Assembly: GCF_001263335.1 (NCBI RefSeq)
Contig: NZ_LGVW01000026.1
Coordinates: 1 to 48,303 of the forward strand
Direction of reading: 5' to 3'
Length of the DNA stretch: 48,303 nucleotides
Source of the DNA: Dichelobacter nodosus
GTDB taxonomy: Bacteria; Pseudomonadota; Gammaproteobacteria; Cardiobacteriales; Cardiobacteriaceae
Both the position numbers and the translations under genes were made by a program. Below, in pieces: positions 4,668 to 29,492 of this stretch. The notes below the pieces were generated by a model that saw nothing but the letters and a program-made list of their open reading frames with translations, had not been told where the DNA came from and did no database searches. Each line of letters starts with the position of its first letter. Position 1 is the stretch's first letter.

Positions 4668-5417
4668 CTATCGCCAACGCGCAATAATTTGACTGAGTTC
4701 ACCGCTTTTCCGGATATTTTCCAAACCGGCGTTAATTTTACGCAATAATTCTTGTTCGCGCTCATCAACACCAATAACTAATTGCGTTGCATCTTTATCT
4801 TCGGCAGTCATATCAATCACTTGTGAATAAAAAACGCGGCGACTCAACGCGCCGCGCGTAGCCAAATAATTGAGCACTAAACAATCGCCCGCAGCAAATT
4901 CGGCTTTACCGTTTAATAAACTTTTCAAACTCAAAAAATGCGTTCCCGGAAAAGCAACAAATTGATCGGGATTAGTGATGATTTGATTTTCTAAAAAAAG
5001 ATCTTTTAAGCCATCTGCGGGATCGGTGCTGATGGTGCCGTTTGTCCAATGAGCTAATTTATCTTTATCCAAAGAAAAAATGCAATCTTTTGATTCTAAA
5101 TAATATTCTGAAGCGGTGATGCCGGAAAAATCAGAAAGATCACTACGAGAAACGCCTTCCATAATGATGGATAATCCTTCTTCTTTCCAATTTTTCAAAG
5201 CTGACCACGGAAGAATTTTGTAATCAAATTCAATATCTTGATCGATAGCAATCGCATTTAAAATATCAATATCAATGCCGGAAACTTTGCCGCGCTCATC
5301 AGTGCTTGCATAAGGCGCATAAATTCTTTCCGTACCGACCAAATAAGTTTTTGCCAAAACAGTTTGGGACAAGATTGAAAATCCCAGCGCTATCAGTAAC
5401 ACATTATTTTTCATCAT
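4668..5417 (-). CDS. Periplasmic solute-binding protein, family 3 (orphan)
   Basis: A 249-residue protein of the bacterial extracellular solute-binding family 3 fold, usual for polar amino-acid ABC importers. A signal peptide (about 1-22, ending LSQTVLA) directs export. The mature part shows the typical order: a start like YLVGTERIYAPYASTDE, GIDIDILNAI, the lobe-1 segment GVSRSDLSDFSG, and a later lobe-2 AGDCLVLNYL. The position where amino-acid binders carry the carboxylate-binding Arg (in the usual T-P-E-R stretch) is Ser here, so the ligand may not be an amino acid. No permease or ATPase gene is adjacent. It could be a scavenging partner of a distant importer or a sensor domain. ATG 5417 is preceded by GGAG. 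Confidence 0.85.
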   Translation of the reverse strand: MMKNNVLLIALGFSILSQTVLAKTYLVGTERIYAPYASTDERGKVSGIDIDILNAIAIDQDIEFDYKILPWSALKNWKEEGLSIIMEGVSRSDLSDFSGITASEYYLESKDCIFSLDKDKLAHWTNGTISTDPADGLKDLFLENQIITNPDQFVAFPGTHFLSLKSLLNGKAEFAAGDCLVLNYLATRGALSRRVFYSQVIDMTAEDKDATQLVIGVDEREQELLRKINAGLENIRKSGELSQIIARWR

Positions 5418-14438: not shown

Positions 14439-17405
14439 TTACTCCTCAACTTTTCCCACGCCGGCGCCGCGCAATTGGCTGATTCCATTTCCCGCCGCAA
14501 TCACTTGAATATGCGTACTCACGCGTTCTTTTAATAACGGCAAATGAGAAATAATCCCGATCATTTTGCCGCTCATTTGAATGCTCGCCAAAGTATCGAG
14601 CGCTACGTCTAACGCCTGCGCGTCCAAAGTCGCAAATCCCTCATCTAAAAATAAACTATCCACGCGCGCCTCTCTTCCCGAAAGCGCCGCAAGTCCCAAC
14701 GCCAACGCCAATGACACAATAAAACTCTCACCGCCGGATAAATTTCTACTGCTGCGCACCTCGCCGCCCTGCCATAAATCCACCACCACCAAACTAAGCG
14801 GCGGCTCCATTTCGGCTTGCAATTGATATCTGTCCGACATTTTCGCTAAAACCTTATTCGCTTCGAGCAACATCGCTTCAAAAGTGAGACTTTGCGCAAA
14901 ATTGCGAAACTTTTTCCCATCTGATGAACCGATCAAATCATATAAACGCTGCCAGCGCTGCACCACGGCGTCCTGCCGTTGATAACGTTCTTTCAAAGCC
15001 GCATTTTCCGCCTGCTCGTTTTCCTGCTGACGGCGGCGCGCGCGCACCGCGCCCAAATCTTCCTGCGCTTTAGCTAAAGCTGACGTTATCGTTTGCAAAT
15101 GCGTTTGACATACGGCAGCGTCTTTCATCGTATCCGGTAAACCTTGCTGTGCCTTGTTTACCCGATCGCACAGCGTTTCCAACTGCCATTGTTGTTGCTT
15201 TTTTTCTTCAGTTAACTGCGCCATTTGTTGCTCAACGCGTTCAAAATCCCGCGCGGCTGCCTGCAACGCCTCAAATGCCGCGCGATGTTCAAAACCATTT
15301 GCCGCTAAAAACTGCATAAATTCCTGCTCCGCCGCGGTTTGTTCTTGCTGCGCTTGCATCAATAACGCCGCATCGCGTTGATACGCCGCCCGCTGCGCCA
15401 ACTCATCTTTAATTTGCGCCAATTCCGCCTGCTGCGCCGCCTGATAACCGCGTTCACATTCCGCGAGCAAACGTTTTTGCGCCGCCTGATAATCTTCAAT
15501 CGTTTGACCGCCTAACAACTGCGCAAATTTTGCCTTTTTCTCAAAAAACGCCTGCGCCCGCGCCGCTGCCAAATTTTTTTCTGCCTCATCAATCAACGTT
15601 AACCGCTGCACAACTTGCGCCAAATCCGTTTTTACCGCCTCCATCTCTCGCCCAATATCTGCCGCACGGAAACTTAAATCGCGTTCAAAAATAACGAGTT
15701 CCTGCCGTAACGCCGAAATTTGCTGCTCAATTATGAGAGATTGCTCCTTAATTTGTGCACACCGCTCCATTAATTGTAATGCCAGTTGCGCCAATTGCTG
15801 ACGCGCCTCATCTGCCGCTTCTGCTTCTTGCTGCGCCGCGCGCCACAATTGCTCCGCCGTCGTCATATCTGGCATTGACACGGCAAACGGGTGTTCCCGC
15901 GCACCACATAAAGGACACGGTTCACCGGTACGCAAAAGTTGCCGCTGTTCATTCAAACTTTTGATTTGCAACGATAAATCATAAATTTGCCGTTTATCTT
16001 CCGCGCGCGCTTTATTTTGTTGCCAATGCATTGTTTTTTGGGCTAAATCCGCCTGCACCGCCTGCAAACGCTGCGCCGTTTCTTGCCATTGCTGCCGAAC
16101 GTCTTGCTGCGTTTTATTCAACGCCGTAATTTGCTGATATTTTTGCTGAAAATCCTGCAACACGTGCTGCCGTTGCAATAAACAATTTTGCCGCGACCAA
16201 TATTCTTGTTTACTTTTTTGCGCCAGCGCCGCATTTAACGCCGCTTCTGCTACTTCAACGCGCAACACCATTTCCGGCAACGTTTTCGGAAAATCCCGTT
16301 CATAAATGCGTAGCGCCGCGATTTGCGCTTGCAATTGTCTTGCTTCATTTAACAACGGCTGCGCGGCTTCTTCTTTTTGCTGCGCGTTTTGCCAAACGGC
16401 TTCCGCTTGCGCGCGCGCGATTTGTGCGTTTTTCACCTGTTCCGCCGCCTTTTTTGCCAACGCAGCGCTGTTATTCACCAATTGCTGCTGCTCGGCACAA
16501 CGCGTCTGCGTGCGCATAAAAGCGTCCCATAAAGCCGCGCCGGCGGAAACTTTTTGATACTGCGCAAAACGCGCCTGTTCTGGCAATAACGCATTCATTT
16601 TTTTATCAATTTCTGCTAAACGCGTTTGCGTGGCGTGCGCTTCTTGCTGCAAAGTATGCAATTGTTGATGAATGTGCACGGCATTACGCCAATCATCAGC
16701 GGCTTTTTGCTGCGCGCAAATGCTATCCATCAACTGCTGCTCTTCCGCTTGCCAACGAGCAATTTCTTCCGCACTGACCAACGAAATCCGGCTCATTTTG
16801 TCTGCTAATACGGAAAAATCATCATGTTCTCGCGCAAAACGTTTTTGTACGGCGATTGAAATCTCGCTATAAATTTCCGTGCCGGTAATTTGTTCTAAAA
16901 TCGGCGCGCGTTCCTCGCCTTTTGCTTGCAAAAATGTGGCAAATTGCCCCTGCGCTAATAATACCGTGCGCGTAAAACGGGCAAAATCTAAATGCGTGAT
17001 TTCGGCGACTTTCGCCGCGGTTCTGCTTAATTTTTCTTCGATAATGACGCCAGTTTCGGCATCACTGATGTAATGCTGCGGCTCCTGCAATTTGCCATCA
17101 CGCCGCCCGTATGCGCGATTTTGCCGCCAAAAAACACGATAACGTTTCCCCGCAATAAAAAATACTACTTCTGCGCCGCATTCCGCGCGGCTGCGGTTCA
17201 TAATTTGATTATCTTTTGTCGTGATTTTGCCCAATCGCGGCGTTTGCCCGTATAAAGCCAAACAAATTGCATCTAAAATCGTGGATTTTCCCGCGCCGGT
17301 GGCGCCGGTGATGGCAAAAATATCATCTGCCATTGCGGTAAAATCAATCTGCCACGCGCCTTTTAACGCGTTTAAATTATGAAAACGTACCGATTCAATG
17401 CGCAT
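14439..17405 (-). CDS. sbcC: Exonuclease subunit SbcC
   Basis: The ATPase subunit of the SbcCD (Rad50-Mre11-like) nuclease that opens DNA hairpins and trims protein-blocked ends. Walker A GATGAGKST is at residues 34-42. Two very long Gln/Ala/Glu-rich coiled coils flank a zinc hook, CPLCGAREHPF, at about residue 500. The C-terminal half has the signature LSGGESFIVSLALALGLA and Walker B LFLDEGFATLD. At 988 residues it is the normal length. The start overlaps the end of sbcD by 11 bases. Confidence 0.96.
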   Translation of the reverse strand: MRIESVRFHNLNALKGAWQIDFTAMADDIFAITGATGAGKSTILDAICLALYGQTPRLGKITTKDNQIMNRSRAECGAEVVFFIAGKRYRVFWRQNRAYGRRDGKLQEPQHYISDAETGVIIEEKLSRTAAKVAEITHLDFARFTRTVLLAQGQFATFLQAKGEERAPILEQITGTEIYSEISIAVQKRFAREHDDFSVLADKMSRISLVSAEEIARWQAEEQQLMDSICAQQKAADDWRNAVHIHQQLHTLQQEAHATQTRLAEIDKKMNALLPEQARFAQYQKVSAGAALWDAFMRTQTRCAEQQQLVNNSAALAKKAAEQVKNAQIARAQAEAVWQNAQQKEEAAQPLLNEARQLQAQIAALRIYERDFPKTLPEMVLRVEVAEAALNAALAQKSKQEYWSRQNCLLQRQHVLQDFQQKYQQITALNKTQQDVRQQWQETAQRLQAVQADLAQKTMHWQQNKARAEDKRQIYDLSLQIKSLNEQRQLLRTGEPCPLCGAREHPFAVSMPDMTTAEQLWRAAQQEAEAADEARQQLAQLALQLMERCAQIKEQSLIIEQQISALRQELVIFERDLSFRAADIGREMEAVKTDLAQVVQRLTLIDEAEKNLAAARAQAFFEKKAKFAQLLGGQTIEDYQAAQKRLLAECERGYQAAQQAELAQIKDELAQRAAYQRDAALLMQAQQEQTAAEQEFMQFLAANGFEHRAAFEALQAAARDFERVEQQMAQLTEEKKQQQWQLETLCDRVNKAQQGLPDTMKDAAVCQTHLQTITSALAKAQEDLGAVRARRRQQENEQAENAALKERYQRQDAVVQRWQRLYDLIGSSDGKKFRNFAQSLTFEAMLLEANKVLAKMSDRYQLQAEMEPPLSLVVVDLWQGGEVRSSRNLSGGESFIVSLALALGLAALSGREARVDSLFLDEGFATLDAQALDVALDTLASIQMSGKMIGIISHLPLLKERVSTHIQVIAAGNGISQLRGAGVGKVEE

Positions 17406-18585
17406 CGTGCACCTGCTGCAAAATGGTTAAAAAATCTGCCGTTAACTGCGCTTTTTCCACATCATTAAACGGCGTTTTCTCCAAACGTTGCGCAAAAACT
17501 TCCTGCGGTTCATACAATTGCCGCGTATCGCTTAACGCGGCTACAAAATCTTGCGTGGAAGGCTGTTGAATGCGCAAAATTTTTACCGACGTATTGGCAA
17601 CTAAATCCTGCAACCGCGCATTTAAAGCACTATCAAAAACGCCCTCTTCAATGATAATTTCCAACCACACCGCCGCCTCATCATTTAAAAGCGCTTCAAT
17701 TTCAGCGATAACAGTTTCTTGCCGTCCTCGTAATTGCCGCAATTTTTGCCACACCGGAACCGTAATGGCATCAATGATCGGCTGCCGCTCGTGAAAATGC
17801 AGCTGCACAATGTGTTTTTCTGAAACGCTTTCACCAAAGCCCATCATTAACGGCGCGCCGCTATAACGAATGCGCGGATTTTGCGCCACCATTTGCGGCA
17901 AATGTAAATGTCCCAGCGCAACATAATCAAAACATTGAGGAAAAATCGTTGCGCTCAAATGCCCCAATTTGCCCACGAATAAATCGCGCACGCCGTCGTG
18001 ATCGGTCGTTTTACCGCCGGCAGCAAATAAATGTCCTAACGCAATTAACGGTTCCGAACCACGCCGCAATTTTTGCGCCTGTTCCGCAGCTTGTTGATAA
18101 TACTGACGCACGCCGTCAGCAATTGCTGAGGCTTTATCTGCCAACGATTCGCCCACCTGCGTGCAACGAATATCGCGTTCACGCAAAAAAGGCACTGCGG
18201 CAACAATCGCGCGCCCGTTTTTCGTCTCCAAAGCAAATACTGCTTCGGCGGCATTTTGCGGCGCCTGCCCAACCACATAAATTTGCATATTAGCGAGCAA
18301 CGCCTGCGGTGCATCTAAAAACGCGGCGCTATCGTGATTGCCGGCAATGATAACGATGGCATCGCATTGCTGCGCGGCTTGATAAAGGAAATGATAATAC
18401 TGCCGCTGCGCAGAAACGGGCGGCGTTGCCGTATCAAAAATATCACCGGCGAGCAATAAAATATCCGGCTGCACGCGCGCCAACGTTTCTAAAAACCAAT
18501 CGAGAAATGCCTGTTGTTCGGATTCGCGCGATTGACCGTGTAATTTCGCGCCTAAATGCCAATCGGCGCTGTGCAAAATCTTCAT
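17395..18585 (-). CDS. sbcD: Exonuclease subunit SbcD
   Basis: The metallophosphoesterase nuclease subunit of SbcCD. The metal-binding residues typical of Mre11-type enzymes are visible: Asp8 and His10 (SADWHLG), Asp48 (LAGDIFD), Asn83-His84-Asp85 (GNHDS), and later ALGHLHLPQ. The C-terminal part (about 290-396) is the capping and SbcC-binding region. Length is 396 residues. The ATG follows the stop of the upstream ABC exporter gene directly (TAAATG), so expression is probably coupled to it. Confidence 0.96.
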   Translation of the reverse strand: MKILHSADWHLGAKLHGQSRESEQQAFLDWFLETLARVQPDILLLAGDIFDTATPPVSAQRQYYHFLYQAAQQCDAIVIIAGNHDSAAFLDAPQALLANMQIYVVGQAPQNAAEAVFALETKNGRAIVAAVPFLRERDIRCTQVGESLADKASAIADGVRQYYQQAAEQAQKLRRGSEPLIALGHLFAAGGKTTDHDGVRDLFVGKLGHLSATIFPQCFDYVALGHLHLPQMVAQNPRIRYSGAPLMMGFGESVSEKHIVQLHFHERQPIIDAITVPVWQKLRQLRGRQETVIAEIEALLNDEAAVWLEIIIEEGVFDSALNARLQDLVANTSVKILRIQQPSTQDFVAALSDTRQLYEPQEVFAQRLEKTPFNDVEKAQLTADFLTILQQVHDAH

Positions 18586-26331: not shown

Positions 26332-29148
26332 ATGGCATTAGACAAAATTATCCGCACAATCAGTCCGGGGTTCCGACGAGAACAAGAGGAACTCGAAGAT
26401 TATCTCTTGCGTTTGGAGCAGGAAAGTCTCAATAACGGTCAGACGATCCGCAATTTGCAAGAAAAAATCCAAGAATTGGAAAAAAAGCATAGCGAAGAAT
26501 TGGGCGTGGTCAATTTACAACTCGCTGATCAAACGCGCGATTTTGAGCAAAAAAGCGCGCAAATGCAGAAAAAAGAACAAGAATTAGCGCAGGAAAAAAA
26601 GGTTTTAGAAGAACAAATCGCAGCTAATAAACGCGCATTTCATAATCAGCAGTTGGAATTGGAGAAAAAATTCCAAGCGTTGCAGGAGCAATACGAGCAA
26701 GAGTTTCAACAAAAACAAGCCGAATGTAGTCAAAAAACGGAAGACGCCGAAGCGCTAAAAACTGCGCTGAAACAAGAAAAAACGCAGTGGGCAGAAAGTC
26801 AACAGCAACGCGTTGCTCAAGCTGAAGAAGCGTTTCAAAAAAAAGAAGGGGAATTTGCTAATCGCGTTTTAGCGCAACAACAAAAGCTCACCGAATTAAC
26901 TGCGCAATGCCAAGCGGCGGAAGCAAAATTGGCTCAATTACAAACGCAATATCAACAAGCAGAAAGCGAAGAAAAAGCAAAAAAAGCGGCACGAGTGGAA
27001 GAATATGCCGAACTGGAAAAAAATCATCAACAACAATTAATCGCCGAGCAGCAAAAGCAAGAAAGCGCATTGCATGATATTCAAAAAGAGTTAGCCGCCG
27101 CGCAAGCGCAATTAGATGAAAAGCAAAACGCCGTTATTCAAGAGCAAAAATCGCTTGAGGATTTACAGAAAAAATCTCAAGAAATTATCGCAACAATTGA
27201 CGAAAAACGTCATAATTATCAAGAAGAAAAAGAAAAATTACGCCTCGAAATGGAAGATAAAGCTCATAAAATTCAAGTCGATTTGGAGCAAGAATATCAA
27301 TTTATTATGAGCGAGCGCGAGCGCAGCGAAAAACAATTGGCAGAAACGCGCAAAAAACAAGAAACGATCGTGGTCGGCGCGCAAGCAGAAGTGAAAATTT
27401 GGCAGGAAAAACTCGATAAAATCACGAAAAGATTCGTTGTTAAACAAGATGAATTGAGTCAAATCCAACGTCAAATTGAGCAAACACAACGCGATACGGA
27501 AAATAAATGCCAACAACTCATTTCCGAACAAGAACGCGTTTGTGCCGAACTCGAACAACGCGCCGAAGAAACGCGGCAAAAACTCGCCTCCGAAGAGCAA
27601 CAGCACGCGCAAAATTATCAGCAGCAAATGGCAGAAATCACCGCCGCGCGCAGTGCATTAGAAAATGAGCAAGCAGAAATTCAGGAACAATTAGTTACCA
27701 GCCGACAAGAACAAATCGATTGCGAACAATCCATTAAAAAAGCACAAGAAAAATTGGAGCAATTGCATAAAGATGCGGTTGAAGTGAAAAGAAAAACGCA
27801 AGAAGCCGTGGAAAAAGAAGAAACGGCAAAACAAGAATATGACCGTTGCAATGCGGCGCTGGAAGAGGCGAAAAACGAACTTGCCGCGCAGCAGCAATCG
27901 TTAACCGCAAAACAACAAGAAATCACCGCCGCGCAGGCAGAATTGGAACGCGTGCAGCAAGAAATTGCGCAGTTCAATCAAGATCTTGCCACAAAACAAG
28001 CGGAACAAGAACAACTCGCAAAATGCACGGCAGAATATGAAAAAGAACAAAAAATGCTGGAAGAAACGAAAAATGAACTTGCCGCGCAGCAGCAATCGTT
28101 AACCGCAAAACAACAAGAAATCACCGCCGCGCAGGCAGAATTGGAACGCGTGCAGCAAGAAATTGCGCAATTTAATCAAGAGCTCGCCACAAAACAAGCG
28201 GAACAAGAAAATCTCGCAAAATGCGCAGCAGAATATGAAAAAGAACAAAAAATGCTGGAAGAAACGAAAAATGAACTTGCCGCACAGCAGCAATCGTTAA
28301 CCGCAAAACAAGCGGAAGCAAGCCGTGCGCAATTAGTCAAAATACAGCCAACTGTAACATCGGCGGAAGATTGTCTCGTCAGCCAACAATTGCAGCAAAT
28401 GCAAGCCGATATGGTTAAAACTTTGGCGCTTACAAAAACTTTGCTTGCGCAATTAACGGAGCGCGCTCAGGGAACCCGCGCGGATTTGATGCATTTACCC
28501 GATGATGAAGCGGGTTCAGATGGATTATTTTTCCAAATCGATGAACCGCATCATTTGGAAGATGAAAAAGAAATGTTGACCAAATCCACGGATTTGATGC
28601 ATTTGCCCGATGATGAAGCGGATTCAAATGGATTGTTCTTCCAAACCGATGAACCGCATCATTCGGAAAATGAAAAAGAAACGTTGACCGAATCCGCAGA
28701 TTTGATGAATTTACCTGATGATACCGCACAAAAACCCAATAAACCTCAAAAGATTCATTCTTTTCAGGAAGTTATATTGCATCGTTGGTTGAGCGATTTA
28801 AATATTTCTAATGACGGGCGCCCACTTTATGCTTATTTCATTACTCCGCAGCAATCCTTTTCTTTATTTAAATTATTGCAGCAATATCAATCGATTGCTT
28901 CATCACCCATTTTTGCGGCGTGTTATTGTTTGGCAGTTAATATGATTTACCGACAAAATTATGCTGGCGGCAATTGGGATTGGCGCGTTGTTGATGAAAA
29001 TTTAGGCATTTCGTTTACGCCTGAAGAAAGAAATAAATTATTTTTATCAGGATTCTCTTATTGGCAACGTCCTTTGTGTTGGAAAAAAGACGGCAGCGTT
29101 GATGAAATGCGCATGATGCAGCAAGAAAGTGGTTTACCGCTAAAATAA
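26332..29148 (+). CDS. Large coiled-coil protein with internal tandem repeats and globular C-terminal domain
   Basis: 938 residues, no established function. ATG 26332 follows GGAGAAG. Residues about 15-690 are an almost unbroken Gln/Glu/Lys/Ala-rich coiled coil with no signal peptide or membrane segment, so it is probably cytosolic. Within it a 66-residue unit (ELAAQQQSLTAKQ...) occurs two and a bit times from residue 511 to 660. Residues 718-797 hold a 36-residue acidic unit (DLMHLPDDEA...FFQ-x-DEPHH) two and a bit times. From about 808 to 938 there is a globular domain: R-W-L-S-D-L at 818-823, DGRPLYAYFIT at 828-838, FAACYCLAVNMIYRQNYAGG up to 880, then N-W-D-W. That pattern recalls, from memory, the N-terminal domain of STY4851/ECs_5259 (DruH-type) defence proteins. 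Structural scaffold is the alternative. Confidence 0.85.
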   Translation: MALDKIIRTISPGFRREQEELEDYLLRLEQESLNNGQTIRNLQEKIQELEKKHSEELGVVNLQLADQTRDFEQKSAQMQKKEQELAQEKKVLEEQIAANKRAFHNQQLELEKKFQALQEQYEQEFQQKQAECSQKTEDAEALKTALKQEKTQWAESQQQRVAQAEEAFQKKEGEFANRVLAQQQKLTELTAQCQAAEAKLAQLQTQYQQAESEEKAKKAARVEEYAELEKNHQQQLIAEQQKQESALHDIQKELAAAQAQLDEKQNAVIQEQKSLEDLQKKSQEIIATIDEKRHNYQEEKEKLRLEMEDKAHKIQVDLEQEYQFIMSERERSEKQLAETRKKQETIVVGAQAEVKIWQEKLDKITKRFVVKQDELSQIQRQIEQTQRDTENKCQQLISEQERVCAELEQRAEETRQKLASEEQQHAQNYQQQMAEITAARSALENEQAEIQEQLVTSRQEQIDCEQSIKKAQEKLEQLHKDAVEVKRKTQEAVEKEETAKQEYDRCNAALEEAKNELAAQQQSLTAKQQEITAAQAELERVQQEIAQFNQDLATKQAEQEQLAKCTAEYEKEQKMLEETKNELAAQQQSLTAKQQEITAAQAELERVQQEIAQFNQELATKQAEQENLAKCAAEYEKEQKMLEETKNELAAQQQSLTAKQAEASRAQLVKIQPTVTSAEDCLVSQQLQQMQADMVKTLALTKTLLAQLTERAQGTRADLMHLPDDEAGSDGLFFQIDEPHHLEDEKEMLTKSTDLMHLPDDEADSNGLFFQTDEPHHSENEKETLTESADLMNLPDDTAQKPNKPQKIHSFQEVILHRWLSDLNISNDGRPLYAYFITPQQSFSLFKLLQQYQSIASSPIFAACYCLAVNMIYRQNYAGGNWDWRVVDENLGISFTPEERNKLFLSGFSYWQRPLCWKKDGSVDEMRMMQQESGLPLK
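27862..28311 (+). repeat. 198-bp intragenic tandem repeat (66-residue coiled-coil unit)
   Basis: Units begin at 27862, 28060 and 28258. The first two are full length and the third breaks off after about 54 bases. The copies differ by only a few bases (for example GAGGCG/GAAACG after the first codon), which implies recent duplication or ongoing homogenisation. The unit is in frame, so copy number changes would lengthen the coiled coil without disrupting the gene. Confidence 0.9.
28483..28722 (+). repeat. 108-bp intragenic tandem repeat (36-residue acidic unit)
   Basis: GATTTGATG starts the unit at 28483, 28591 and 28699 (exact 108-base period). Two copies are complete and the third is short. 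Each encodes DLM-x-LPDD, then FFQ-x-DEPHH and a Glu/Lys-rich end. The unit links the coiled coil to the C-terminal domain and may be an array of short peptide-binding sites. Confidence 0.9.
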
Positions 29149-29167: not shown

Positions 29168-29191
29168 AAAGCTCCGAATTATCGGAGCTTT
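29168..29191. terminator. Bidirectional terminator between the convergent coiled-coil and J-like genes
   Basis: A 10-bp perfect stem (AAAGCTCCGA / TCGGAGCTTT) with loop ATTA, followed on the plus strand by AACATTTTTT and preceded by an A-run that gives a T-run on the minus strand. It can serve both convergent genes. Confidence 0.88.
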
Positions 29192-29221: not shown

Positions 29222-29425
29222 TTATTTTGCGTATCGGCTGGGATAGTTTTGCCGCAAAAATAAATCGTAATTCGCTTTACTGGCTGGATTTAATAACGTT
29301 TCTTTGATTGCTTTTATTTCTTCTGGATTAGTTGCTTTGGAGGCATAACGTTCAAAAGCAGCTTGTAATTCTTGTGGTTTTGCGTCCATTCCAACGCCAA
29401 GAAGTACATAATAGTCTGTCATCAT
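29222..29425 (-). CDS. Small J-domain-like protein lacking the HPD motif
   Basis: 67 residues. The first part (DYYVLLGVGMDAKPQELQAAFE) matches helices I-II of a DnaJ J-domain (typical DYYEVLGV...EIKKAYR). The end (EEIKAIKETLLNPASKANYDLF) matches helices III-IV including the L-x-P-x-x-x-x-x-YD signature. The loop that should carry HPD is missing, so it should not stimulate an Hsp70 ATPase. It may be a decoy, an adaptor, or a purely structural J-like fold. AGGTG lies seven bases before the first ATG, and a near-consensus promoter (29465-29492) lies directly upstream, so the gene is expressed on its own. It is convergent with the coiled-coil gene. Confidence 0.75.
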   Translation of the reverse strand: MMTDYYVLLGVGMDAKPQELQAAFERYASKATNPEEIKAIKETLLNPASKANYDLFLRQNYPSRYAK

Positions 29426-29464: not shown

Positions 29465-29492
29465 ATTATAAAATAATCTTAGGTGATGTCTA
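29465..29492 (-). promoter_or_regulatory. Near-consensus sigma-70 promoter for the J-like gene
   Basis: On the minus strand TAGACA (29492-29487) and a perfect TATAAT (29470-29465) are separated by 16 bases. The predicted transcript starts about 30 bases before the ATG. A 7-bp inverted repeat, ATCACCT (29431-29437) / AGGTGAT (29481-29487), overlaps both the ribosome site and the spacer. Confidence 0.7.

Follow-up and report, generated by a model that had tools for sequence, protein, structure and literature searches.

The DNTR09 typing locus of Dichelobacter nodosus lies in a gene that joins a predicted coiled-coil rod to a C-terminal DruH N-terminal domain

Dichelobacter nodosus, the sheep-footrot bacterium, carries a gene whose 938-amino-acid product ends in a full-length N-terminal domain (NTD) of DruH/YjiT, attached to the C-terminal end of a coiled-coil protein, a placement that we found nowhere else in the genomes searched. 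DruH, the STY4851/ECs_5259 protein of Druantia type III (PDB 9tud), was characterized only in 2026. The domain itself is already known, and the novelty lies in the architecture. The gene sits in a stretch of 48,303 nucleotides, referred to here as the window, and its open reading frame (ORF) runs exactly from 26332 to 29148, as the original prediction had it. Its parts are as follows.

26332..29148, plus strand: whole gene, 938 aa, coiled coil plus C-terminal DruH NTD (ORF)
26437..28470, plus strand: rod, aa ~36 to 713, predicted continuous helix/coiled coil (composition, periodicity, low-confidence single-sequence AF2)
27858..28311, plus strand: 198-bp (66-aa) in-frame tandem repeat in the rod, 2.3 copies, 95% matches
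28481..28722, plus strand: 108-bp (36-aa) in-frame tandem repeat forming an acidic linker, aa 718 to 792, 2.2 copies in this assembly
28762..29145, plus strand: DruH/YjiT NTD, aa 811 to 938, six helices (profiles, 9tud match, AF2)

An ordered set of motifs near the C terminus had first suggested a resemblance to the start of STY4851/DruH proteins. These motifs lie at the positions claimed for them (R818-W819-L820, D828GRPLYAY835, FAACYCLAV, and Y877AGGNWDW884), and the resemblance was borne out by profile searches, by a sequence match to 9tud, and by a confident fold predicted on the DruH alignment. For residues 800 to 938, the PADLOC DruH profile PDLC00050 matched at an E value of 1.1e-19 over profile positions 18 to 133 of 1101. 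The NCBIfam STY4851/ECs_5259 model (NF038336) matched the protein at 1.5e-16 over positions 3 to 107 of 1090. The latter score, 59.5 bits, lies below the curated whole-protein cut-off of 150 bits, as expected when only a single domain is present. As a control, an HMM was made from 55 DruH NTDs with the window sequence left out; it gave 70.4 bits for the window domain, compared with 6.5 for the best of 2,000 shuffles, and none of the other window ORFs rose above noise. The solved DruH structure, 9tud, was the only significant PDB sequence match to the domain-family profile (2.7e-26), and the window domain alone matched it at 0.0053. When modeled by AF2 together with 46 DruH NTDs, the domain folded into six helices (pLDDT 92.8, pTM 0.86). 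The 938-aa protein had no Pfam or PHROGs match, and Foldseek and VIA returned nothing convincing (best E 0.13, Z 4.8). Because 9tud, which is not among the fold matches listed, may postdate the library, this result does not imply a new fold. The likeness to DruH, a helical domain of ~125 aa, extends from end to end, taking in the W/Y/G core as well as the xGLP motif at its close. Since the last residues of the protein, ESGLPLK, align to the EGGLP that closes the DruH NTD, exactly one complete domain is present. The globular C-terminal domain is therefore a full-length DruH/YjiT NTD, at scores far above chance.

The domain is nevertheless a divergent one, with 24 to 37% identity to its relatives. 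It keeps 21 of the 34 strongly conserved DruH-NTD columns, where the solved protein 9tud keeps 20, and agrees at 11 of the 54 variable columns. The retention of so many conserved columns suggests that the fold is maintained. Substitutions at aa 63 to 137 of DruH either abolish or enhance defense (PMC13192584). Among the defense-required residues, R78, W88, Y114, W115, and G137 are identical in the window domain and F69 is replaced conservatively by Y, but E75, R79, L132, and G136 have become M, Q, M, and S, respectively; T131 also differs, and the near-invariant stretch LGSLF reads MRMMQ. At the level of sequence, this pattern fits a domain in which the fold has been kept and the DruH-specific contacts have been altered. 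The branch leading to the window domain is so long (3.84) that its origin among the DruH proteins can be narrowed only to a clade of 23 rows. The divergence could also have preceded the fusion.

About 800 residues of predicted coiled coil and repeats precede the domain, as had been read from the sequence at the outset. This region is poor in proline (0.3%) and glycine (0.8%), its hydrophobic periodicity is mostly near 3.5 to 3.6, and single-sequence AF2 predicted helix over aa 36 to 713, at low confidence; the full-length model was poor (pLDDT 56.9). The rod shares its length and its richness in E, Q, K, and A with coiled-coil-rich scaffold and cytoskeletal proteins and with SMC-type coils. 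The SMC matches, however, were weak and of low complexity, and the SMC ATPase heads are absent from the protein; nor is homology of the rod to named scaffold proteins detectable, and the C-terminal head here is the DruH domain. The 66-aa repeat within the rod could be a further site of length variation between strains. The 36-aa repeats of the linker begin at aa 718, 754, and 790.

From what is generally known of bacterial coiled-coil-rich proteins, one might suppose that this is a cytoskeletal or cell-shape protein of the crescentin kind, in which the rod is the working part and the DruH-like tail serves only as its anchor or cap. Predicted helix runs almost unbroken for ~680 residues, and no signal peptide is evident in the sequence, which would suit such a role. 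We regard it as very unlikely, given that no family match was found and that the N-terminal 123 aa of the rod had no homologue at a significant E value in other genomes of the family (Cardiobacteriaceae).

The repeat linker coincides with a locus already used for strain typing. DNTR09 is an MLVA marker of D. nodosus (Russell et al. 2014, PMC3969714) with a 108-bp repeat (PMC6783547). It was characterized in each of the 77 isolates of that study, whose alleles had 2, 4, 5, or 6 repeats (PMC3969714). The primer sequences printed in PMC4518504 both have exact sites in the gene.

28359..28377, plus strand: primer DNTR09R site, exact match, in the C-terminal part of the rod
29002..29021, minus strand: primer DNTR09F site, exact match, inside the DruH NTD

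DNTR09 therefore spans window positions 28359 to 29021 and lies within coding sequence; it is the same DNA locus, with both primers and the 108-bp unit in common. In the passages at hand, the DNTR09 literature treats the locus as a typing marker and mentions neither the encoded protein nor a relationship to DruH. The amplicon measures 663 bp here, whereas 987 bp is the size expected for VCS1703A, so that the two differ by exactly 3 x 108 bp; the repeat number may be understated in this short-read assembly. Since the two primers match the gene exactly, the question of its presence across strains is answered in part: the locus was typed in 77 of 77 isolates, PCR showing the locus rather than an intact frame in each. 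Because 108 bp corresponds to 36 codons, the length of the linker differs between strains without a change of frame. The same primers dispose of an assembly artifact or chimera. They were designed on another strain, VCS1703A, yet both match exactly on either side of the repeat, one in the rod and the other in the DruH domain, and the predicted product sizes differ by exactly three repeats.

To see how widely this architecture occurs, we searched ~1,150 genomes with the domain profile. The sets, which overlap in part, comprised 96 relatives, 369 genomes from the same class, 398 from the phylum, and 385 from a second class. Every significant match examined was of the DruH type, and in 56 of 56 named loci in genome_contigs the domain opened a DruH-type frame. 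Short frames that carry the domain elsewhere (L075, L076, L129, L132, and L085) turned out to be DruH genes that are truncated, carry a frameshift, or run off a contig. One of them, L075 of Marinobacter changyiensis, has, from position 4884 onwards, a DruH cut to 306 aa and followed by an unrelated gene, without DruE, and so a truncated N-terminal part of DruH does occur elsewhere. The expectation of an unusual architecture thus held across the genomes searched.

Closer to home, none of 11 other genomes of the family has a DruH NTD, the gene beside priA is absent from all seven family genomes inspected, and a single-sequence scan of genome_contigs returned no relative of the protein. The absence of the domain from the family, together with a rod N terminus lacking relatives, indicates that the gene is lineage specific, as far as the searches reach. 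A mobile origin was considered and rejected: phage records and viral contigs held no relative of the gene, and the plasmid matches were ordinary DruH. Among the replicons that PLSDB lists as plasmids is a 4.9-Mb E. coli sequence (NZ_CP134663.1) that looks chromosomal and carries a DruH-type gene near mdtM.

The gene is not a Druantia system. In ordinary DruH loci the neighbor is a DruE-like helicase, which lay beside 53 of 56 (of the other three, two have a broken DruH gene and one is at the end of a contig), whereas the absence of an adjacent DruE noted at the outset holds for the window and extends to the genome (an assembly of 1,452,418 bp in 36 contigs). There, only a helicase-like stretch of 78 aa weakly matched, at 32%, the DruE used for comparison (its first 1,023 aa), and no MZB/DUF1998 domain was found, in a search whose control was positive in 10 of 14 genomes. 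Neither is there a DruH body: NF038336 run on the whole genome found only the window NTD and a weak match in an unrelated frame. In DruH, which is ~1,100 aa long, the domain is N-terminal, whereas here it occupies aa 811 to 938 of 938 and the ~960 aa that follow it in DruH are absent, among them the Ig-like domains, the alpha/beta core, and the CTD with its ATP/dimer site. This missing region is the one that holds the parts of DruH proposed for phage sensing (the Ig-like domains) and for ATP binding and the active dimer (R1064 and K1067 of the CTD) (PMC13192584). With both the DruH body and DruE missing, membership in Druantia III fails on the features tested.

These losses would also be expected if the domain were a relic: a Druantia III locus would have decayed, and its NTD, joined by accident to a coiled-coil gene, would be tolerated there without function. 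The very long branch and the low GC content of the domain (0.374, among the lowest 4% of window segments) point the same way, as do the truncated or broken DruH genes that stand without DruE elsewhere (L075 and L097). We nonetheless consider a relic unlikely. The W, Y, and G positions that define the fold are retained to the same degree as in the solved DruH, the AF2 fold of the domain is confident, the frame of 938 codons is intact with repeat alleles in whole codons, and primer DNTR09F, whose site falls within the domain, gave a product from each of the 77 isolates of the typing study.

The gene lies in a housekeeping stretch, with eno, a DAHP-synthetase-family gene (kdsA type), pyrG, and tilS on one side and priA, znuC, znuB, and dksA on the other. 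It is flanked by tilS, which is divergent, and priA, which is convergent, making it a monocistronic unit. A GGAG lies ~8 nt 5' of its ATG, and a hairpin follows the stop codon.

29168..29191, no strand assigned: hairpin with a 10-bp stem, 3' of the stop, terminator-like on both strands

Between the gene and priA, a 67-aa ORF at 29222 to 29425 on the minus strand is J-domain-like (Pfam DnaJ, E = 1e-4, under the gathering score; HPD motif not seen), and a sigma-70-like promoter match (11 of 12) lies just upstream of it at 29492 to 29465. Elsewhere in the window, the minus-strand gene at 14439 to 17405 gave PADLOC matches to LmuB, mad3, and DndD that are generic; its SbcD-type neighbor at 17395 to 18585 identifies it as an SbcC-type protein.

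The housekeeping setting bears on a further alternative, single-gene phage defense, in which the head would sense a late phage protein or a phage DNA intermediate and the coil would cluster or sequester it or trigger growth arrest without DruE. The domain does derive from a component proposed to sense phage, the NTD surface of DruH controls activation (PMC13192584), and the length of the linker varies between strains. We find this reading improbable, however: the preprint proposes that recognition lies with the Ig-like and J-like portions of DruH (PMC13192584), which, apart from the NTD, are absent here, the protein has no recognizable effector domain, several defense-required residues are changed, and the gene sits among tilS, pyrG, priA, znuCB, and dksA.

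The reading that we prefer, and to which we give an even chance, is that the protein is a scaffold or tether, neither a nuclease nor a Druantia III component, in which a DruH-derived, noncatalytic binding head is carried on an oligomeric coiled-coil rod by an adjustable linker. A lineage-specific coiled-coil gene would have acquired a DruH-type NTD at its 3' end and retained it as the C-terminal head of the protein. The role of sensor or scaffold suggested at the outset as a possibility would be compatible with the anatomy. The protein would be cytoplasmic, the rod, to judge from its composition only, may oligomerize, and the 36-aa repeats would set the reach between rod and head. The head would be a noncatalytic module that binds a protein or DNA ligand, a role suggested by the same region of DruH, where the N-terminal region forms a regulatory surface and the helical regions at the N terminus line the path of the modeled DNA (PMC13192584, a preprint). 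The changed defense residues, the lost LGSLF stretch, the branch length of 3.84, and the poor full-length AF2 model count against the scaffold.

Taken together, our results confirm a real transfer of a domain into an architecture of which the search gave no second example, at a locus shared by the typed isolates of a well-studied animal pathogen. It is conceivable, if quite unlikely, that the regulatory or sensing surface of DruH now serves D. nodosus as a coiled-coil protein of immunity or recognition that acts alone, its reach tuned between strains by the copy number of the 36-aa repeat, in which case DNTR09 typing would have been recording variation in a defense-derived protein. An excised DruH NTD that appears to have kept its fold and has nothing downstream of it offers a natural test of the domain acting alone. 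For footrot epidemiology, a typing marker gains a protein identity, and its variation is suggested to alter spacing inside a protein rather than to be neutral.
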